NCBI RefSeq assembly: GCF_003967195.1
Contig: NZ_AP018725.1
Span: forward strand, 1,054,001 to 1,118,000
Source: Sulfuriflexus mobilis
GTDB lineage: Bacteria > Pseudomonadota > Gammaproteobacteria > AKS1
Direction: 5' to 3'
Length of the DNA stretch: 64,000 bases
Shown: piece by piece, positions 36,924 to 49,065 of the stretch
Numbering within the stretch: the first letter of the stretch is position 1
Layout: every line of letters starts with the position of its first letter
Notes under the pieces: model-generated
What the model was told of the DNA's origin: nothing
What the model saw: only the letters and a program-made list of their open reading frames with translations
Databases searched by the model: none
Translations under genes and position numbers: made by a program

Positions 36924-37853
36924 TTAATTCAGCGGCCATTCGTATATCGCCTCGACCTCATTCCCCGAACCCTTGTAGTTCAGTGATTTGCAAAGTCCAC
37001 GAACGATGATCAGACCTCGTCCGAATGGGTTGCCCGTTGCCGTTTCCTGATTGATGCTATTGAAGTCAAAGCCCATGCCACTGTCTTTAATAGCGATGGT
37101 GATACGGGCAAAGCCGCTCTCGATTTTCTCGGTTACAGATAATTGGATACTGCCGGTATTCTTTTCGCAAAGCTTGACCAGGCGCATTTCATAAAAGCGC
37201 ACAAATCCGTCAGGCCCCTGTTTTACTACAGAAGGAAGTGCCAGAACTCCGTGATCGAGGGCGTTGTTATAGAGTTCGGTGACGATGATGTTCAGGTTTC
37301 TGCTGTGTTCGGCGGGGATGTGCAGATTCTGCATGGCGCGGGTGATGCGTTCAAGGATATCGTGATTGCGAAGGGCCCGTATGTCAGCATGACAAGAGAA
37401 CATCCAGGAAAATATACTATGTTTTATATTGTATGAGGGCAGGCTGATTTCATTACTGATATCTTGTGTGAGGGGCTTATTGCTATACTCTGCAGTATCA
37501 CGCAGGTGAATCAACCTGGAAATAAGGGGTAGCGGGGAGGCCTTGTGGGTATGGATTGTATCAAATACATTATCATGGTTTTCAATGTCGGTCTCTGTGG
37601 TATCGCTTAGCTCTGCCGAGATAAACACCCGAGCGGAACCGTTGTTGATGGCCTTTAATGAGTACATAAGACGGCGGCAACCATCCCCGGTACTTTGTGT
37701 ATCGATGTAGATAATAGTTACCGGCGTTTGCCGCAGGAATTCCATGGCCTGATCAACAGTGTTCGCCATGAGGCAATCAAATCCATTTGCCTCAAGCGCC
37801 TCCTGATGGGCAGCAAGAAATGCATTGGATTGGCTATATACCAGGGTGGTCAT
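36924..37853 (-). CDS. Receiver-like domain plus RsbW-type ATPase
   Basis: 309 residues. N-terminal part (1-120) has a response-regulator-like fold with IIYIDTQS (Asp in the expected strand) and a KASP loop, but the acidic pair is not clear, so it may be a degenerate receiver. The C-terminal part (about 160-309) is an HATPase of the anti-sigma type: N box ELYNNALDHG, then KDSGMGFDF and GRGLIIVRGL. With the STAS protein upstream it forms a partner-switching pair. Confidence 0.85.
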   Translation of the reverse strand: MTTLVYSQSNAFLAAHQEALEANGFDCLMANTVDQAMEFLRQTPVTIIYIDTQSTGDGCRRLMYSLKAINNGSARVFISAELSDTTETDIENHDNVFDTIHTHKASPLPLISRLIHLRDTAEYSNKPLTQDISNEISLPSYNIKHSIFSWMFSCHADIRALRNHDILERITRAMQNLHIPAEHSRNLNIIVTELYNNALDHGVLALPSVVKQGPDGFVRFYEMRLVKLCEKNTGSIQLSVTEKIESGFARITIAIKDSGMGFDFNSINQETATGNPFGRGLIIVRGLCKSLNYKGSGNEVEAIYEWPLN

Positions 37854-37905: not shown

Positions 37906-38211
37906 TTATTCCAAATCAAAGAGTTTCTGGAAGCTGGAAATTTCCATGATGTTTTTAATTTCATTGTTGCAATTAACAATTTTAATCCGGCCGCGATCAT
38001 TGCCGACATGCTCCCGCAATAGCAACAGCATACCCAGTGCTGAGCTGTCCATATAGTCTGTGTTGCGCATATCGATAACGAAAGAAACATTGGCGTTACT
38101 TTCATCGTCATAGGCTTCACGAAAATCCGTATGTGAGCTGTAATCAAATTTTTCACTGGTCTTGATGGTGACGGTATTGCCATCACTGGACTTTGAGCTG
38201 GTTACGGGCAT
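37906..38211 (-). CDS. STAS-domain anti-sigma-factor antagonist
   Basis: 101 residues, single STAS domain; the phosphorylatable Ser lies in YMDSSALGML, the classic site in SpoIIAA-type proteins. It is co-oriented between the second chemoreceptor (34 nt) and the RsbW-like gene (52 nt). The RsbW-like ATPase is the expected kinase partner. Confidence 0.88.
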   Translation of the reverse strand: MPVTSSKSSDGNTVTIKTSEKFDYSSHTDFREAYDDESNANVSFVIDMRNTDYMDSSALGMLLLLREHVGNDRGRIKIVNCNNEIKNIMEISSFQKLFDLE

Positions 38212-38245: not shown

Positions 38246-39448
38246 TCAGAACAGGTCTATTTCACCTTCATCCATGCTGGCCTGGCTCACCGCCTTATGC
38301 AATGGCGTAAGATGTATTTCCTGTAGCGCATGGATGCGGCCGCGATAGTGTTCAATTGAATCATCTGTGTTCATGGCGTCACTGGATTGTAGCTGTAGCA
38401 ATTCATTACTGGCATCGTTAAGAAAATGATTCAGGGCATCGAGCATGTTGTTGGAATGTTCTGATAACTGCCTGACCATATCCTCAAACTGCAGTGAACG
38501 AATGGCGGTGGCAACGCTGTTATTGATACCTGATGACATATTCGATACTTCACCGAGGTTGTTATGCAGGAACTCGTTCAGCAACCTGGCCTCTTCGACC
38601 ATTATTGATATGCGCTGCTTGGATTCCAGGGCAACACTCATATCTTTAGAAGCCATCTCACCTATATCTTTTTTGGCAATACTGATGTTCGCCAGAGAAC
38701 TCTTCATTACCTCGCGAATGCGATCACTGAATTCGTTTGAGTTTTGTGACAGTTTTCGCACCTCATCGGCGACGACGGCAAAACCCCGGCCACTTTCCCC
38801 GGCGCGTGCCGCCTCGATCGCCGCATTCAGTGCCAGCAGGTTGGTCTGATCGGCGATAGCTTTTACGTCATCGAGCATGCCCTCAACCTTGACCATATCC
38901 TTGGCGATATCTTCAATGCTATGCACGAGGTTCATACTGTCGCGACTGGTAGAAAGGATGTGCTCAATAAAAGCATGCAGGGCCTTGTTGGTCTCATCGG
39001 CAAAGCCGTTGATCATGAGGCTTTGTTCACTGCCACCATCATCGTTTTCGATAGTCTTAGTCATGTTGGTGACCAGACCACTAACCAGTTCCTCCTGTGA
39101 ACGCGACATGTCATTGAGGCCATTGAAACTGCTGGTGAGGTTTTCAATGGCATCATTGACGAGGGTGCCAATCTGCAGCAGTTCGTCCTGTACCTTGGCT
39201 GTTTCGCCCTCAATGATGACCCTTATCTCGTTGTAGAGGGGGGCAATGTCGATAGTTGAGGTATGGGTCCTGTCGTCGGCAGTGGGCCTCGCGGCTGTGG
39301 ATAGTCCCCTGATGGCGAGCAGCCAGATACCGCTACAGACCAACAGGACGAGGGCGGCTGGCCAGCCACTCTCGATGACAAACATCAGACCGATGCCTAT
39401 GACCGTGCCGAGCCATGCAAAGGGGAACATTTTTAGTAATTTCAGCAT
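38246..39448 (-). CDS. Methyl-accepting chemotaxis protein, second receptor
   Basis: 400 residues: two hydrophobic segments near the N-terminus (about 10-25 and 29-47) with no space for a periplasmic domain, then an MCP signalling module ([21 protein letters not shown]). The last five residues are EIDLF, identical to the end of CheD. It sits just after cheB but has its own sigma-28 promoter, and leads the STAS and ATPase genes. Confidence 0.9.
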
Positions 39449-39547: not shown

Positions 39548-40624
39548 TTATTTATACAGTCCAATCAATTTATTCGGTATTTCCTGCAGGGCCAGGATGA
39601 CGTCTACGCCACCCTGTTTGACGGCTTCGCCGGGCATGCCCCAGACCACACTGGTCTTTTCATCCTGGGCGATGGTGGGCGCGCCGGCCTCTTGCATCTC
39701 TTTCATACCGATGGCGCCATCATCACCCATACCGGTGAGGATGACACCAATGGCATTCGGGCCGACATTTTGTGCCACGGAACGGAACATGACGTCTACG
39801 GCCGGACGGTGACGGTTGACGGGCGGACCATCACTGAGTTTGCAGATATAGCGTGCACCACTGCGCTCAACCAGCATGTGGTGACTGCCGGGGGCGATAT
39901 AGACATGTCCGGGCAGAATTTGCTGGCCATCAGTGGCCTCGTACACGGTCATGGCACAGTTGTCGTCCATACGCTTGGCAAAGGGGCCGCTGAAGGCCTC
40001 CGGGATGTGCTGGGTAATGACAATACCGGGGGCATCGGCGGGCATATGCATGAGGACTTCCTTGATGGCCTCCGTGCCACCGGTTGAAGCGCCGATGGCA
40101 ATGATCCTGTCAGTGGTTTTGAAGTTTTTAACCTCGCGTTTGTTAAGCACGGCATCGGCTGTATGGCGTTCCTGGGTTTCGAGTGTCGGGCCACTGTCCC
40201 AACTGTAGTTTTGCAGTTTTGCCCCGGAAGCCGCCTTGACCTTTCCGCAGAGCTCCTCGGCATAGTCCTTGAGTCCATGCGCGACATCGAGTTTAGGTTT
40301 GGAAACAAAATCAACGGCACCCATTTCGAGTGCCCGCAAGGTAATGTCGGCACCTTTTTCCGTCAGTGATGAGACCATTACTACGGGCATGGGTCGTAGA
40401 CGCATGAGATTACTAAGGAAGGTCAGTCCATCCATGCGTGGCATTTCTACATCAAGTGTCAGGACATCCGGGTTTAGCTGTTTGATCTTGTTACGTGCAA
40501 TAATCGGGTCGGAGGCTGTGCCGATCACTTCAAGGTTTGGGTCGGCATTAAGGATCTCGGTGAGGACTTCGCGCACCAGCGCGGAGTCGTCAATGATTAA
40601 TACCTTGATTTTATCTTTGGCCAT
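39548..40624 (-). CDS. cheB: CheB protein-glutamate methylesterase
   Basis: 358 residues. Receiver domain with phosphoacceptor Asp58 ([11 protein letters not shown]). Methylesterase domain has catalytic Ser in [10 protein letters not shown], His in ITQHIPEAF and Asp in GMGDDG. It removes methyl groups from receptors after phosphorylation by CheA. It follows cheD by 30 nt at the end of the che run. Confidence 0.95.
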
Positions 40625-40654
40625 AAAAGTTCACTACTCTGGCTTGTTATCCGC

Positions 40655-41308
40655 CTAAAACAAGTCGATTTCGCTCTCGACCGGTTCGTCTTCCAGTTGG
40701 TGCATGTATTTAGTTTCACGTTCGATAATCGTATTATTATGTAGTGAGCGTAGTTTTTTCATTTTTACTTTCCCGGTCAGGGGATTGTACATAACTTTTC
40801 TGGGGTAAATGTCCCCCAGGTCTTCAGCTGTCACATCAAGATTTTCAACCTCGACATATTCTCGCACAAAGGCGATATTACGACTGCCAACATCGGTCAT
40901 CTGCGCAAGGACCTTGCCGCCGCCAAACAGTTTTACCTCCAGGTTCTTGCGCGCACCACCATGACTGAGAATATCGTTAATCAAATGCTCCATGGCATAG
41001 TTGCCATAACGCGTGGCAGCGCTGATATTGATATTCTTCCAGGCATCGGAGCTGTTTGGGGTAGTCATGGGCAGCATGAAGTGGTTCATGCCACCAATGC
41101 CAAATATTCGGTCACGTATGCACGCCGATACGCATGATCCGAGTACAGTCACAATCTCTTCATTTTGCGTAGTGACATAATATTCACCCGGTAAGATCTT
41201 CGCTGCATGGGCATGATGCATTCTGTCCCAGTAACGATTGATGTGTTCAAAACCTGGCAATACCGGCTTCAGATCAGGAGTTTGTGAACGGCCGGCAGAC
41301 GTTGTCAT
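40655..41308 (-). CDS. cheD: CheD receptor glutamine deamidase
   Basis: 217 residues from ATG 41308, which begins 1 nt after the cheR stop; the frame runs further to 41461 inside cheR. CheD motifs: LGSCVSACIRD (catalytic Cys), GGMNHFMLP (His) and the later KLFGGGKVL. It converts receptor Gln to Glu before methylation. The last residues VESEIDLF match those of the second MCP. Confidence 0.93.
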   Translation of the reverse strand: MTTSAGRSQTPDLKPVLPGFEHINRYWDRMHHAHAAKILPGEYYVTTQNEEIVTVLGSCVSACIRDRIFGIGGMNHFMLPMTTPNSSDAWKNINISAATRYGNYAMEHLINDILSHGGARKNLEVKLFGGGKVLAQMTDVGSRNIAFVREYVEVENLDVTAEDLGDIYPRKVMYNPLTGKVKMKKLRSLHNNTIIERETKYMHQLEDEPVESEIDLF

Positions 41309-41309
41309 G

Positions 41310-42164
41310 TTACTTGAGCTTCTGGTAAATAGTGTTGCCGATAAGTTTGAAACGGTCACAGACCTTAAACATGGTTTCAGAATGTCCCAGGAACAGACGG
41401 GCATCATCAACAAGCAGGTCGGCGTAACGATCAAACAGGACGCTTTGCGTGGGCTTGTCAAAATAAATCACCACGTTACGACAGAACATGAAGTCAAAGG
41501 GCCCCTTGATAGGCCATTCATTCATCAGGTTGAGTCGTTTAAAGGAAATCATCTCCTGTAAAGCGGGATGGACGCGTACCAGATTCTGTTTATCACCTTT
41601 ACCACGCAGGAACCAGTTTCTGGCGCGTTGCTTGGACAAGCCGGCAATACGTTCTGCATCGTAGATTCCAGACTGTCCCTTGGCGAGCACATTCGAATCC
41701 AGATCAGTGGCGAGGATCTTGATATCCCAGTCACTGTTTTCAGGAATGACCTCGCGAATGGCCAGGGCTATGCTATAGGGCTCTTCACCCGTGGAACAAC
41801 CTGCCGACCAGATACGTAGTCGTCTCGTCTGCGCATTGGTCTTCATCAACTCCGGCAGTAAGGTCTTTTGCAGGTACTCAAAGTGATGCGGTTCCCGGAA
41901 AAATGACGTCAGGTTGGTGGTGATCGCATTGGTGAAATTCAGCAGTTCATCTTCACCCTTGGGACTGTCGATGAGTGAGCAATAACTACCGAAATCCTGC
42001 AGGTCCACCTCGCGCAGACGCCTGGCCAGTCGGCTGTACACCATATCCCGTTTAGCCTCGGATAAGGATATACCAGTATGCTGACTGACCAGTTGTCGTA
42101 TGCGATTAAAGTCCCTGTCGGAGAACTGAAATTCACGCTCGCGCTTATTCGCGCTGCTTGGCAT
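41310..42164 (-). CDS. cheR: CheR protein-glutamate methyltransferase
   Basis: 284 residues from ATG 42164, preceded by GGAG 8 nt upstream; the frame opens at 42194 overlapping the MCP gene. It has an N-terminal all-helical domain, then a SAM-binding domain with IWSAGCSTGEEPYSIAL. It methylates receptor glutamates. The upstream receptor ends in an xWxxF tail, the known CheR docking motif. Confidence 0.95.
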   Translation of the reverse strand: MPSSANKREREFQFSDRDFNRIRQLVSQHTGISLSEAKRDMVYSRLARRLREVDLQDFGSYCSLIDSPKGEDELLNFTNAITTNLTSFFREPHHFEYLQKTLLPELMKTNAQTRRLRIWSAGCSTGEEPYSIALAIREVIPENSDWDIKILATDLDSNVLAKGQSGIYDAERIAGLSKQRARNWFLRGKGDKQNLVRVHPALQEMISFKRLNLMNEWPIKGPFDFMFCRNVVIYFDKPTQSVLFDRYADLLVDDARLFLGHSETMFKVCDRFKLIGNTIYQKLK

Positions 42165-42178
42165 TGATTTCGCTCCGC

Positions 42179-45106
42179 TTAGAACTCTTCCCATTCACTG
42201 TCATCTACCGGTGCCGATGAGGCGGCGGCAGGGCGGCGAGCGGCGGCTGCGGGGCGTGCTGCAGGCCGACGCGCTGCCGGTGCGGCAGGGGCTGTGCGCG
42301 GGGCACGGCGTTCTACCGACTCGTTCTCATCCACGCGGAAGAAGGTCATCAACTGGTCAAGACCACGGGCCTGTTCATCAAGGGATTCACTGGCGGCGGC
42401 GGCTTCTTCAACGAGGGCGGCGTTCTGCTGGGTCACCTCGTCCATTTGCATAATGGCCTTGTTAACCTGTTCGATACCACTCGACTGTTCCTGACTGGCG
42501 GCGGCGATCTCGGCAATGATGTCACTGACCTTCTTCACGGCCTCGACGATCTCGCCGAGGGTCTGGCCAGATTCATTGACCAGGCGACTACCATCATCGA
42601 CCTTCTCAACACTGTCGTTAATCAGGGCCTTGATTTCTTTCGCTGCACCGGCACTGCGTTGGGCGAGGTTACGCACCTCACTGGCGACTACGGCGAAGCC
42701 ACGACCCTGTTCACCAGCACGTGCCGCTTCCACGGCAGCGTTGAGGGCGAGCAGGTTGGTCTGAAAGGCGATTTCATCAATGACGCCGATGATGTCAGCA
42801 ATCTTCTTACTCGCCGAGTTGATTTCACTCATGGCGGAGATGGCATCGCCGACCACGGAACCGCCTTTCTCGGCCTGGTCGCGGGCACCGGCGGCCAGTT
42901 GATTGGCCTGGCGGGCGTTATCCGCATTTTGTTTTACGGTACTGGTGAGCTCTTCCATGCTGGAGGCGGTTTCTTCCAGGCTGGAGGCCTGCTCCTCGGT
43001 ACGCTGGCTCAAGTCTGAGTTACCCTGGGCGATCTCGGTACTGGCACCGGCGATGTTGGTACCGGATTCACGGATCTTGCCGACGATATCGACCAGGTTA
43101 TCTACAGTACTGTTGACTGAGTCACGTAGCGAGGCAAAGTCACCCTGGAAGTCACCTTCCATCTTCTGGGTCAGGTCACCCCTGGAGAGGGTTTCCATTA
43201 CGGCCATACCACCTTGCAGCGGTTCTACGACGGAATCCATAAGAGAGTTAATCCCTTCACCCAGATTCTTCATAAAGCCACTGTATTCACTGTGCTCGAT
43301 GCGGTTGTCCAATATCCCATTGCTGGCGCTATCGATCAGGTCCTGAATCTGGCGTTCGGCATCCTTCTGCTCGGTGATGTCATTCCACTGCACCATGTTA
43401 CCCATGTATTCACCGTTGGGGCCGGTGATCATGGTGGCGTTGACACGGAACTCCAGGTCACCGACCTTGATCTCGGCGGTGGCCGGCAGGCGACTGGCAT
43501 CAGAGAGCAGGGCACGCTGATGCGCCGGGTTCTTGTGGAAACCGTCAATACAGGTGCCAATAAGATTATCAACATTCAGGCCCGGCCAGATTTGACGCAG
43601 TTCCGTTTGACGATTGCGTAGCATTTGTACCACGGCCGGGTTGGCGAAGGTAATGTTCAGGTCCTCATCACACAGCATCAGGTTGGCCTCGGCACCATCG
43701 ACTGCAGACTGCAGGCGGGCAACTTCGAGTTCCTTCTTGCGTGTTTCGGTAACGTCTGACCATTCCAGGGCATTACCGACGTAGCTACCATTTTGATCCA
43801 TGATGGCCGTGGCATTGATATTGAAAGTCAGCGGGCCGACCTGAATATCTGTGCTGAACGGCAGGTTGCTCGGGTCAGACAGCAGGCCACGCTGATGTGC
43901 CGGGTTTTTGTGGAACATGTCAATGCATGAGCCTACCAGTCCATTCACGCTGAAGCCGGGGTACAGGCCTTTTAGTTCTGTTTCATATTTACGCAGCAGT
44001 TTCAGGGTGGCATCGTTGGCGTAGGTGACGACCAGGTCACGGTCGATCATCATGATGGCAGTCATGGCACCATCGACAGTGCCCTGCAGGCGTGCAACCT
44101 CGGTTTCGCGTGCGCGCAAGTCGGTGACATCGGCCCACTCCAGTGAGTTACCAATGTATTCACCATTGCTACTGATCTGGGCAGTCACATTCAGGGAGAA
44201 AACCAGTGGACCAACCTGAATATCTGTCTGGAAGGGCAGGTTGTTCGGATCAGACAGCAATTGACGCTGGTGAGCCGGATTCTTATGGAAACCATCAATA
44301 CAGGCCCCCATGATCTTGTCAGCAGAGAAACCGGGATAGACGCGACGCAGCTCTTCCTCATTTTTCTTCAGCAGATTGATGGTCGCCTGGTTGGCATAGG
44401 TAATAACCAGGTCACGGTCTACCATCATAATCGCGGTCATGGCACCATCAATGGCCGACTGCATTCGGGTTAATTGTTGCTGATCATTTGTTACTGCGGC
44501 ACTTGTGCTAGCCATTTCTGTATCCTCCGGGGTTCCGTATGCATTTAGCATGGTGGTGGCAACCGTAGTTAATGCGGTATGCCATGCGTTTTTTACTTCA
44601 GTGGTCCAAAGCTCACCAGCGAACTCTGCCATAACATCCAGCAGGGTATCGGCGACGGCCGTGTAGTGATCGGGTTCGGCACCATAGCCTTCATGGCGCG
44701 CGCCCATTTGTTGTAAAACGGGCACCAGTTCATCCGGCTTGCGCAGGTTGTTAACCAGCAATGCCAGTGCGGCAACCAGCTTCTTGCGCTGCTTGGCCGG
44801 CGTGGTGTTTTTGAACAGCGGCTTGACGGCCGGGTAGCGCTCGAATAATTCTTCGTAAAAGCGCTTTACCAGGTCATCCGCCTGTGGGGCCAGTGCCGCA
44901 AAAGAGCTTTCCAGCGTTTCGACATCCAGCCCAAGTGGTGAGACATAGGGTTTGACTTTTTCTGCCTTGGCAGGGGTTTTTTTTGCCGGCTTCTTTGCCG
45001 CCTTTGTTTTTTCAGCAGCAATGGGCGTGGACGATTCTCCCTCTTCCTCTTCCTGCATCCAGGCGAGGGGGTCGTAGCCCATCTTGCTTTGTTTCTTGGT
45101 GGCCAT
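42179..45106 (-). CDS. Soluble globin-PAS3 chemoreceptor
   Basis: 975 residues, no membrane span. A Lys/Ala-rich leader; a globin domain at about 57-191 with candidate proximal His138 (GARHEGYG) and a following [10 protein letters not shown] helix, as in bacterial haemoglobins; three PAS repeats (about 210-330, 331-455, 456-580), each carrying the motif [13 protein letters not shown]-like segments; an MCP signalling domain ([20 protein letters not shown]); an Ala/Pro/Arg-rich linker; and C-terminal EWEEF. Haem binding, hence O2, NO or redox sensing, is likely but inferred. AGGAGC precedes the start. Confidence 0.92.
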
Positions 45107-45127: not shown

Positions 45128-45304
45128 CTATCCGTTCCAGGCGAGGCCGGAAAGGATTTGGGTCAGAATTAAACTATTCATGCTGGAAGAACGTGTACTG
45201 TCATCGGCCAGATGGAGTTCATTGCTGCGCGCACGGCTGATAACACGATTTGCATGTTTGTCGTGTCGACGAGGTGTTGCACTCGTGGATTTCCGGTCAT
45301 TCAT
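45128..45304 (-). CDS. Coupled small protein between parA and the MCP
   Basis: 58 residues. The ATG at 45304 overlaps the ParA stop as ATGA (4 nt), and AAGGGGAGGA lies 10 nt upstream inside the parA frame, so it should be translated by coupling. Sequence is basic N-terminally (RRHDKHANR) and ends SLILTQILSGLAWNG, a helix-like hydrophobic tail. No family recognised. It is located where CheW-type or localisation partners are found in other parA-bearing che clusters. Confidence 0.5.
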   Translation of the reverse strand: MNDRKSTSATPRRHDKHANRVISRARSNELHLADDSTRSSSMNSLILTQILSGLAWNG

Positions 45305-46059
45305 TTGATGAAAGTCCTCCCCTTGAGCAGGTCGTCCGCCAACTCCAGATAATCCTTGGCGCCATTGCTGGATTTCTGGTATTCAAAAATCGTCTGGCCA
45401 AAGCTGGGACTTTCAGCGAGGGCAACGGTTTCACGAATCGGGGTGGCAAGCACCTGGCCTGGAAAATAGTCCATCAATTTGCCGCGCACTTCATTGGCTA
45501 GCTTGCGTCGACCGTGAAAGCGTGTAACAACCATCCATTTTTTGGTGGCATGTTTCAGTCGTGTTTCAATATGCTTGAGGATATTTAATAGTCGTGACAG
45601 GCCGTGCAGCGAGAGGTAATCGCCGGCAACCGGGATCAGCATCTCTTTGGCGGCAAGCATGGCATTCATGGTCAGCATACCGGATGAGGGCGGGCAGTCG
45701 ATGAGGACAAAGTCCTGCCCGGGCAATCCCTTCACGGCATCACTGAGCAACCAGCCCCGACGTGCGCCACCCGTGGCGACCTGTTCCAGTTCACCCAGGC
45801 GGGTGCCGGCGGGGATAAGCTGAAGTTTGTCACGAACCTTTACACGTACATCATTAATATCAGATTCACCCAAGAGCACTTCATCAATACCGGATTGCAT
45901 TTTCATCTCAGCACCAAAACTGGCGGTTAAATGCGCCTGCGGGTCCATGTCGATGACGGTGACAGACTTGCCAGCCAGCGCCAGGGCGTGCGCGAGGTTC
46001 AGCGTAGTGGTGGTTTTTCCCACGCCGCCTTTTTGATTCATCACTGCAATCATGCGCAT
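45301..46059 (-). CDS. ParA/Soj-like ATPase of the chemotaxis locus
   Basis: 252 residues. Deviant Walker A KGGVGKTTTT, LIDCPPSSGM and a central MDPQAHLTASFG motif mark a ParA-type ATPase. ParA-like genes inside che clusters (ParC, PpfA) place chemoreceptor arrays at poles or on the nucleoid; no ParB gene is present. It follows cheW by 21 nt. Confidence 0.9.
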   Translation of the reverse strand: MRMIAVMNQKGGVGKTTTTLNLAHALALAGKSVTVIDMDPQAHLTASFGAEMKMQSGIDEVLLGESDINDVRVKVRDKLQLIPAGTRLGELEQVATGGARRGWLLSDAVKGLPGQDFVLIDCPPSSGMLTMNAMLAAKEMLIPVAGDYLSLHGLSRLLNILKHIETRLKHATKKWMVVTRFHGRRKLANEVRGKLMDYFPGQVLATPIRETVALAESPSFGQTIFEYQKSSNGAKDYLELADDLLKGRTFIK

Positions 46060-46080: not shown

Positions 46081-46602
46081 TTATCCAGCCAGCCCGTCAG
46101 TGGCGGCGAGTTCATCACCGGACAGAAGGTGGTCGATATCCAGAATAATAAGCATTTTCTCGGAAACGGTGGCGAGGCCTTTAACAAATTCGACGTTGAC
46201 GACATTGCCAAAGTCTGGCGCAGGCTTCATTTCTTCGCCGCTGACGTCGTATACATCTGATACGGCATCAACAACAATACCCATTATGCGATCGCGGTCA
46301 TTGCTCTCGATCTTGAGCACGATGACAACAGTCATCGGGCCGTATTCGACTTTGTCCATCGAAAATCGTTGGCGCAGGTCAATAATCGGCACAATCGTAC
46401 CGCGCAGGTTAATGACACCTTTTATATAGCCTGGTGTGTTCGGGATAGGGGTTACTGAGTCCCAGCCCTTGATCTCCTGAACGCGCAGGATATCCACACC
46501 ATATTCTTCATCAGCGAGAATAAAGGTGAGGTATTGTTCGGCATCCGGATCGGCGTCGGCACCGATGAGGATTTCATTTTCAATTGCTTGTTGTGTACTC
46601 AC
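46081..46602 (-). CDS. cheW: CheW coupling protein
   Basis: 173 residues, one CheW-like domain with EYGVDILRVQEIKG and LRGTIVPIIDLR. It couples CheA to receptors. It sits 12 nt after cheA. Confidence 0.94.
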   Translation of the reverse strand: MSTQQAIENEILIGADADPDAEQYLTFILADEEYGVDILRVQEIKGWDSVTPIPNTPGYIKGVINLRGTIVPIIDLRQRFSMDKVEYGPMTVVIVLKIESNDRDRIMGIVVDAVSDVYDVSGEEMKPAPDFGNVVNVEFVKGLATVSEKMLIILDIDHLLSGDELAATDGLAG

Positions 46603-46614
46603 AGAGAACTCTCC

Positions 46615-48696
46615 TTACGCAGCTTCGCTGTTGACAGCGCTGACATCGGGTTTTTTAGGACTCGGGGGGGGTGAATCATAGTTTCCCTCACGAAACATAC
46701 TAATCAGGCCAGCAATATCGAGGATCAGGGCCACCGTGCCATCACCGAGGATGGTGGCACCGGAAAGTCCCTCGATACGACGGTAATTGGTTTCAAGACT
46801 CTTGATGACGACTTGTTGCTGGGCCAGTAGGTCATCAACGATGACACCGGCGCGGTGCCCATCACCTTCAACCACTACCATCAGCCGTCCTGCCAGGTCC
46901 TTGTTTTCTTCCGGCATGCCGAAGACCCGGTGCGCACGAATAATGGGGATATATTCATTACGCAACTTGTACAACTCTGCCTTACCCGCCACGGCATTGA
47001 CTTGCTCTGTCTTGACCTGAATGGACTCGATAATCGATATCAGCGGGAAGACATAAGTATCATCGCCGACACGGACCAACTGGCCATCCAGGATCGCCAG
47101 GGTTAACGGTAGGCGAATCGTGAATTGGCTACCGATGCCTTCTTCCGATTTGACTTCGACATTGCCACCGAGGGCCTTGATGTTTTTGCGGACCACATCC
47201 ATGCCAACACCTCGGCCGGAGACATCACTGACCTGATCGGCCGTAGAAAAGCCGGGGTGGAAAATCATATCCTGGATCATTTCATCGCTGAGATGGTCAT
47301 CCGGACCGATAACGCCACGTTCAATGGCTTTAGTTTGAATCTTCTTACGGTTCAGGCCTGCACCATCGTCAGATATTTCAATAACGATATTGCCACCCTG
47401 GTGATAGGCGTTGAGATTGACTGTACCGGTTTCCGGTTTGCCGGCGGCTACACGCTGTTCTGGGCTCTCAAGGCCGTGGTCGAGTGCATTGCGTACCAGA
47501 TGCACCATCGGGTCACCGATTTTTTCCATCACGGTCTTGTCGAGTTCGGTTTGTTCACCCGAGATCACCAGGTCGACCTTCTTGTCGAGCTTGCTGGATA
47601 AGTCATGAATCAGGCGTGGCATGCGGCTAAAGACGAAGCTGATGGGCAGCATACGAATACGCATGACACTTTCCTGGAGTTCACGCGTATTGCGTTCAAG
47701 TTGGCCCAGGCCTTCACGGAGCTTTTCCAGTTTGTTGGTGTCTATGACCTGGGTTTCTTCAAAATCACTACCCATTTGACCGAGCATGGATTGGGTGATC
47801 ACCAGTTCGCCAACCAGATTAATAATCTCATCAACCTTGTCAATGTCGACGCGAATCGAGGTGGTTTCGCCGGCCTTTGCCGTTTTAGCGGAACGTGTGG
47901 CGGGCGCCTTATCTGTGCCTGCCGGTTCGGCTGTGTGTTCTGTATTGCTTGCAGGGCTTTCTGTCGACACGGCCTTGGCCTCGGCGGCCAATGCCGTGAT
48001 GTCCAGATCGCACTCGTCATCAACCCATTCGAACACTTCACGCACGTCCGCCTCACTGATCTCGCCACTCAGGGTCAGATCCCAGGAGAGGAAAGAGTCT
48101 TCAGGGTTTAGTTCACTAAAGCCGGGCAGTTTGGAGATATCAGCCTTGACATCAAGTTCACCCAGCTCTGCCAGTGCACGTAACATACGTACCGGGTCAT
48201 TACCCGTTCGCAGCATCTCTGCATGTGGAGTGAATTTTATTTTCCAGCCGGATGATGTCGCCGCTGCGCCAGCTGTCTCATTGCTGCTATGGTCTGTTTC
48301 TATGGAATCGCTACCGAGCAGGGCATCGAGTTCGGCCTTGACCTCGGCAACCTGGGCAGCATCCATTTCACCGTCGTCACGTAGCGCTGTGAGCATGCCG
48401 CGAATAATATCTACAGACTTGAGCAGGATGGACACGGCATTTTGTGTAACCGCGCGGGTGCCATCACGCATTTCATCCAGTAATGTCTCTGCTACATGGG
48501 TGAATTCGGCAACATTATTAAAGCCAAATGTGCCACTGCCACCCTTGATGGAGTGGGCGGCGCGAAAGATGGTGTTTATGACATCAATATCGGTCGCACC
48601 CACATCAAGGTTTAGCAGTTCTGTTTCCATGATATCCAGACCCTCGAAGCTTTCTTCGAAGAAAGTCTGGTGGAATTGCCGCATATCAATGCTCAT
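46615..48696 (-). CDS. cheA: CheA histidine kinase
   Basis: 693 residues. HPt domain at about 1-110 with phospho-His48 (RAAHSIKGGSG); a spacer with P2-like region (about 160-240); dimerisation domain; HATPase with N box VRNALDHGLE and G boxes SDDGAGLN and GRGVGMDVV; CheW-like domain at the C-terminus. It phosphorylates CheY and CheB. It is preceded by cheY by 6 nt. Confidence 0.96.
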   Translation of the reverse strand: MSIDMRQFHQTFFEESFEGLDIMETELLNLDVGATDIDVINTIFRAAHSIKGGSGTFGFNNVAEFTHVAETLLDEMRDGTRAVTQNAVSILLKSVDIIRGMLTALRDDGEMDAAQVAEVKAELDALLGSDSIETDHSSNETAGAAATSSGWKIKFTPHAEMLRTGNDPVRMLRALAELGELDVKADISKLPGFSELNPEDSFLSWDLTLSGEISEADVREVFEWVDDECDLDITALAAEAKAVSTESPASNTEHTAEPAGTDKAPATRSAKTAKAGETTSIRVDIDKVDEIINLVGELVITQSMLGQMGSDFEETQVIDTNKLEKLREGLGQLERNTRELQESVMRIRMLPISFVFSRMPRLIHDLSSKLDKKVDLVISGEQTELDKTVMEKIGDPMVHLVRNALDHGLESPEQRVAAGKPETGTVNLNAYHQGGNIVIEISDDGAGLNRKKIQTKAIERGVIGPDDHLSDEMIQDMIFHPGFSTADQVSDVSGRGVGMDVVRKNIKALGGNVEVKSEEGIGSQFTIRLPLTLAILDGQLVRVGDDTYVFPLISIIESIQVKTEQVNAVAGKAELYKLRNEYIPIIRAHRVFGMPEENKDLAGRLMVVVEGDGHRAGVIVDDLLAQQQVVIKSLETNYRRIEGLSGATILGDGTVALILDIAGLISMFREGNYDSPPPSPKKPDVSAVNSEAA

Positions 48697-48702
48697 AGGT
48701 TC

Positions 48703-49065
48703 TTATCCTAAAACTTTTTTTACAGTTGCCAGGAGTTGATCAGGATTAAATGGTTTGACGATCCAGCCGGTCGCGCCGGCCTGTTTGCCTGCCATTTTTT
48801 TCTCGCTAGAGGATTCCGTGGTCAGAGTAAGAATCGGTATAAACTTGTAGGCTGGCAGTGTCCTGAGTTCTTTTGTCAGGGTGATGCCATCCATGTTAGG
48901 CATGTTGACGTCAGTAATAACAAGATTGAATTTATTGGACTTGGCGATATTCAGAGCTTCCTGTCCATCCTTTGCCTCAGTGACATCATAGCCAGCGCCC
49001 TTCAGGGTGAAGCTCACCATTTGACGCATGGATGCAGAATCATCCACTGCAAGAATGCTTGCCAT
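48703..49065 (-). CDS. cheY: CheY-type response regulator
   Basis: 120 residues, stand-alone receiver: DDSASMRQ (Asp pair), VITDVNMPNMDG (phosphoacceptor Asp), TLTTESS (Thr) and VKPFNP (Lys). It is likely the output regulator of this CheA. Confidence 0.93.
   Translation of the reverse strand: MASILAVDDSASMRQMVSFTLKGAGYDVTEAKDGQEALNIAKSNKFNLVITDVNMPNMDGITLTKELRTLPAYKFIPILTLTTESSSEKKMAGKQAGATGWIVKPFNPDQLLATVKKVLG

Follow-up and report, generated by a model that had tools for sequence, protein, structure and literature searches.

A small unannotated gene upstream of globin chemoreceptors that probably serves the receptor array rather than the neighbouring ParA

Introduction

The excerpts of PMC10241942 available to us describe the partners of ParA/MinD ATPases in chemotaxis clusters (ParP/ParC, TlpT/PpfA and the CheW/ParC of Halothiobacillus) as having positively charged, disordered N-termini. 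The locus studied here resembles those systems, as these excerpts present them, in placing a ParA-like ATPase within a che operon (PMC10241942). Few bacterial operons have been studied as thoroughly as those of chemotaxis, but this one includes a component that is spread over at least 17 families and has no Pfam or NCBIfam model. In the available parts of the open-licence literature on ParA-linked chemotaxis clusters, CheZ peptides and globin chemoreceptors, we found no description of this small gene or of the GxDPLAW motif discussed below; the string DPLAWM returned only cancer papers, chance matches. We suggest from comparison of loci that the small protein probably works for the signalling array of the globin receptor rather than for the adjacent ParA.

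Results

The window, by which we mean the whole stretch of 64,000 nucleotides analysed, contains an operon whose Pfam matches give the order STAS, cheY, cheA, cheW, parA, small gene, globin-PAS-PAS-PAS-HAMP-MCP receptor, cheR, cheD, cheB. Its features are:

48703 to 49065, minus strand: cheY (Pfam)
46615 to 48696, minus strand: cheA (Pfam)
46081 to 46602, minus strand: cheW (Pfam)
45301 to 46059, minus strand: gene for a parA-like ATPase, AAA_31/CbiA (Pfam; ATGA overlap)
45315 to 45324, minus strand: AAGGGGAGGA, ribosome-binding site of the small gene, within the end of parA (sequence)
45128 to 45304, minus strand: small gene, 58 codons, ATG to TAG (frame kept in relatives; congener dN/dS 0.06 to 0.11)
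45131 to 45169, minus strand: ILTQILSGLAWNG, conserved C-terminal 13 residues, putative docking helix and W-x-G end (member alignment; helix prediction)
42179 to 45106, minus strand: soluble chemoreceptor with globin, three PAS, HAMP and MCP signal domains and a C-terminal WEEF (Pfam, translation)
45056 to 45079, minus strand: N-terminal receptor motif GYDPLAWM, putative ParA-docking peptide (GxDPLxW follows parA in 39 of 45 loci)
44549 to 44863, minus strand: globin domain of the receptor (Pfam)
39548 to 42194, minus strand: cheR, cheD and cheB, downstream of the receptor (Pfam)

The small gene runs from an ATG at 45304-45302 to a TAG at 45130-45128. Its ATG shares the letters ATGA with the TGA that ends parA, AAGGGGAGGA lies 10 nt upstream of it, and 21 nt separate its stop from the start of the MCP receptor. 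An earlier note on this DNA had described the 58-residue frame, the overlap, the upstream element and the spacing, all of which are confirmed, on the minus strand. The N-terminal tail of the window copy has a net charge of +4 and its last 13 residues a net charge of 0.

The receptor itself ends in EWEEF (42182-42196, minus strand), which resembles the pentapeptide that tethers CheR to E. coli receptors, and its last codons overlap the frame of cheR. After cheB, also on the minus strand, come genes for a 400-residue MCP-signal protein (38246-39448), a STAS protein (37906-38211) and a HATPase_c_2 protein (36924-37853); their domains suggest a partner-switch output beside the che operon.

The orthologous parA loci of three congeners have an identical arrangement as far as their contigs extend. 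The frame is not broken in these close relatives: the two with a complete junction retain frame, start overlap and C-terminus, and in the third (L021/L159) start and frame persist until the contig ends inside the gene. The C-terminus is retained as SGLAWNG, SGIAWNG or SEIAWNG; the N-terminal tail drifts. The comparison of synonymous and non-synonymous changes that the earlier note had proposed gave a dN/dS of 0.11 over 23 C-terminal codons of L157/L158 (Fisher p 0.0012) and of 0.06 over 21 N-terminal codons of L158/L159 (p 4e-5), the other two frames of the latter pair giving 1.4 and 1.1; the first 30 codons of L157/L158 show saturation. Weaker values came from L273/L280 (0.46, p 0.09) and L264/L269 (0.35, p 0.16), and these two pairs alone are therefore no proof of coding. 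A frame ending in the motif occurs in 33 of 35 regions upstream of receptors, as against 4 of 7000 dinucleotide shuffles, a contrast that is partly circular since the pattern was derived from the same members. The 35 regions are the 36 small-gene loci described below minus L164, whose peptide falls outside the 330-nt stretch, and the two misses are L264 and L269, which carry R for W. Of the 36 members, 34 end in Gly, for which all four codons are used (16, 9, 6 and 3 times), which indicates that conservation acts at the amino-acid level; the stop codons are TGA in 15, TAG in 12 and TAA in nine. On this sequence evidence the 58-residue frame is a real gene missed by gene catalogues, and the frames of the relatives together with dN/dS bear out the earlier proposal of an unannotated, operon-coupled gene. 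We considered and rejected read-through of the stop, or a programmed frameshift, into the receptor: the two frames agree in the window, but the small frames of the congeners are out of frame with the receptor.

Searches with parA covered 369 genomes of the class, 398 of the phylum, the order of G055 and smaller sets; in a contig scan with an alignment of ParA, matches to ordinary ParA proteins drowned out the rest. A complete small frame with its tail was present at 15 parA/receptor junctions of the retrieved loci. Counted over one genome per species, in a sample gathered partly via the motif itself, the gene lies directly upstream of the receptor in 36 of 51 globin-receptor loci, 15 times after parA and 21 times after cheW, and these 36 span 17 families. 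The 15 loci that lack it (six after parA, namely L168, L171, L173, L174, L176 and L177; two after a globin-STAS gene; five after cheW; two outside any detected che operon) show that the gene is dispensable. PAS receptors without globin that follow parA have it in none of four cases (L169, L170, L178, L180). Seven of the 36 members were assigned by eye from a six-frame print: L243 and L261 end in W-x-S, L264 and L269 have the R already mentioned, L265 and L268 end in W-x-G-A, and L276 fits the pattern. L161 and L190 were missed by the locus filter, yet are plain in the member comparison and are included; the most diverged members are L189, L190, L264 and L269. Two loci were dropped before counting, L159 for its contig end and L185, in which no uninterrupted globin-receptor frame was detected.

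From 14 of the 15 parA-junction members (L190 excluded) we made a profile of the final 18 residues, which, run blind on the 369 genomes, gave 18 matches at E <= 0.012, and 16 of these lie directly before a globin receptor. Eight matches were absent from the profile; six of them adjoin a globin receptor and are preceded by cheW, not parA, and the remaining two (G078:C39, G132) have no che genes nearby. A search with the receptor globin matched 68 of the 369 genomes. Across the loci compared, then, the small gene tracks the globin domain of the receptor, independently of parA, and the window copy, with its W-x-G tail before a globin-PAS-MCP gene, belongs to this family. On the ParA tree, presence and absence of the gene need four label changes, and in families f53 and f76 some members lack it and others have it, a pattern that fits an old gene with losses.

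Several further candidates and oddities were noted. An apparent second copy in the genome of the window (G000:C1:1136136) lies inside another frame, with no stop after it, and was rejected. In G292 (L222/L284) a fitting 30-residue frame ending LLEQLFSNIVWFG (motif end 7770 in L284) precedes a receptor without detected globin in a different che cluster, a single case that was excluded from all counts. We likewise rejected the idea that the tail is fused to some other che protein: scanning all six frames of 40 loci with a strict pattern, which missed L189, L190, L191 and L194, turned up a single stray match beyond 12 junctions. L191 has a full CheZ in addition to the small gene. In L167, L168, L173 and L174, cheA is a frame of 838-893 residues with an in-frame globin insert near residue 130-280 of the reference CheA, putatively a haem-binding chemotaxis kinase.

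Members are 23-62 residues long (15 measured) and only the C-terminus is conserved, as Phi-Phi-x-x-Phi-[LF]-[AS]-x-[LM]-[AVS]-W-x-G-stop. When 34 members are aligned on their aromatic residue, information peaks at W, followed by [AS] at -4, [LF] at -5 and [LM] at -2. The last 13 residues carry a net charge of +1 to -2 in 17 members tested and keep their small residues, and the N-terminal tail ranges from -9 to +12 across 17 members. The earlier description of a small basic protein with a hydrophobic C-terminus therefore holds for the C-terminus, which is conserved, but not for the basic N-terminus, which is not. In the AlphaFold prediction from 15 sequences (pTM 0.28), residues 35-57 form a helix that follows a disordered tail, and block pLDDT rises from about 59 to 85-88 at the end; ten helix residues reach a pLDDT >= 90. 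Pfam, NCBIfam and a PDB library without chains under 20 residues gave no match for the small protein; none of 15 members matched a CheZ family of Pfam or NCBIfam up to E = 1, and none has a phosphatase body. Rfam returned just one sub-threshold miRNA match, attributed to chance.

The protein encoded right after parA carries GxDPL[ASVG][WA] in 39 of 45 parA loci. All six frames of these loci (1,379,670 codons) contain the pattern 39 times in total, so it is absent elsewhere in them. Near versions occur in L163 (QMDPLAWL) and L179 (DHDPLAWL), and none was found in L055, L186, L191 or L192. Receptors, STAS proteins and a globin-STAS protein are all among its carriers; receptors preceded by cheW are without the motif, save for weak remnants in L263, L271 and L274. 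We infer that GxDPLAW is a candidate ParA-docking peptide. In L183 and L184, parA and the globin receptor are separated by a frame of 315-317 residues with DPLAW, globin and STAS.

The tail of E. coli CheZ binds CheY, and it can be set beside that of the small protein: ILEQVLSDMAW (L272) and FLDEIFSSMAW (L281) against QVDDLLDSLGF. On an 11-position matrix of the family, on which members score 15-27 bits, five CheZ tails score -2.4 to 5.8. Those of Photobacterium, Burkholderia and Cupriavidus exceed all 203 E. coli ORF C-termini, and those of E. coli and Pantoea are equalled by one and four of the 203. As controls, the C-terminus of FtsA scored -21 bits and the N-terminal motif of the receptor -10 to -15; the score of the receptor motif led us to reject a ParA-binding core shared between LAW of the tail and PLAW of the receptor. 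The CheZ tails were compared after the resemblance had been noticed and the five are related to one another; with no partner column in support, the resemblance is a lead, not proof. Columns separating loci with the gene from loci without it were sought and none was found in CheY, CheA, CheW, globin, PAS or the signal domain; ParA, CheR and CheB have one each, equal to the maximum of 100 label shuffles. The CheY of the operon has W at the position of Tyr106 of E. coli CheY.

Discussion

We infer that the small protein is a trans-acting accessory of the globin-PAS chemoreceptor array. Its variable, mostly unstructured N-terminal tail (about 10 to 50 residues) would be followed by an amphipathic helix with W-x-G at its C-terminal end, which would dock on a soluble component of the array. 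Docking peptides are laid out in this way, with a free tail before a conserved C-terminal helix. We regard docking in trans, whatever the partner, as fairly likely. Our guess for that partner, and a tentative one, is the CheY of the same operon, because the hydrophobic spacing of the tail is the same as in the CheY-binding tail of CheZ. CheY may be held here as the C-terminal tail of CheZ holds it, and the small protein, not itself a phosphatase, would keep CheY at the receptor cluster or buffer it there. Several points count against this reading: the CheZ tails score low on the family matrix and end at the aromatic, the CheY of the operon has W in place of Tyr106, 15 of the 51 globin-receptor loci do without the gene, and L191 has a full CheZ as well. 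The full picture, in which a stand-alone CheZ-like tail without phosphatase captures CheY at haem-sensing cytoplasmic arrays and evolves with the globin receptor, not with CheZ or ParA, is offered as a speculative possibility.

Docking in trans could equally have the receptor (its globin or PAS domains), CheW or CheA as its target instead of CheY. The strict adjacency to the globin receptor, the absence of the gene from all four loci with a globin-less PAS receptor after parA, and its absence from three of four loci with a globin insert in CheA are consistent with such a partner. However, these proteins show no separating columns and 13 globin receptors within che operons manage without the gene, and we hold this variant to be possible but doubtful.

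The conserved end might instead belong to a leader peptide acting in cis, stalling or slowing the ribosome at the stop and so setting translation of the downstream receptor. TnaC and SecM are regulatory leader peptides of this kind, and the small gene is like them in its conserved C-terminus, variable N-terminal tail and position upstream of one gene. In favour of this, distant members share no more than the C-terminus beside the stop, with a tail of free length; the receptor invariably follows the gene closely, mostly at operon spacing, and in L164 the receptor starts inside the end of the small frame. Unlike in TnaC and SecM, the stop does not have a fixed position, being shifted by one codon relative to W-x-G in L190, L265 and L268. 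All three stop codons are in use, RNA folding at the small-gene/receptor junction is not unusual in the window, L157 or L158 (z 0.75, 0.21 and 0.46), and the N-terminal tail is under purifying selection in L158/L159. These four observations make a leader less likely; the amphipathic pattern, moreover, suits a folded helix, and we consider the explanation unlikely.

A membrane tether, in which the amphipathic tail anchors the soluble array to the membrane, would account for a C-terminal amphipathic helix with Trp and for a receptor whose Pfam matches include no transmembrane domain. The near-neutral last 13 residues with their conserved small residues argue against it; so does the C-terminus of FtsA, a membrane-binding tail, which scored second lowest among the comparators. 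We judge a tether improbable.

The earlier note had proposed that the small protein is a receptor-array adaptor for ParA, and the ATGA coupling in the window and the 15 members that follow parA agree with this. Nevertheless, 21 of the 36 members have no parA at the site, six parA/globin-receptor junctions lack the gene, and the basic tail is not conserved. The receptor motif GxDPLAW is the better candidate for the contact with ParA, and with it in place, and with the 21 members that lack parA, there is no need for a separate adaptor; we regard this role as very improbable. A chance open frame would be short and without database match, as this one is, but the 36 of 51 loci, the shuffle contrast and Gly codons, and dN/dS reduce that explanation to a negligible probability.

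A trans-acting accessory of the globin-receptor array is thus the reading that we prefer. The small gene makes it easy to test in what way arrays of soluble, oxygen-sensor-like receptors depart from those in the membrane; GxDPLAW, a motif separate from it, is a concrete candidate for the recognition of such soluble arrays by ParA.

By gene layout the locus can be likened to BcsR beside BcsQ, another protein of some 60 residues encoded next to a ParA-family ATPase; unlike in that pair, the small gene here is not tied to the ATPase. It also differs from the ParA/MinD partner peptides, as described in the excerpts of PMC10241942, in being conserved at the C-terminus and in occurring without parA, and the receptor N-terminus (a segment of 17 residues) fits their description better than the small protein does (PMC10241942). 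The likeness to the CheZ tail (VDDLLDSLGF-COOH in E. coli) is of another kind. Both are C-terminal and helical, share the spacing Phi-xx-PhiPhi-xx-Phi-small-aromatic, frequently have acidic residues at the same two places, and are encoded in che operons with cheY; the small protein is unlike CheZ in having no phosphatase body, two extra residues after the aromatic and a matrix that the CheZ tails match with low scores.
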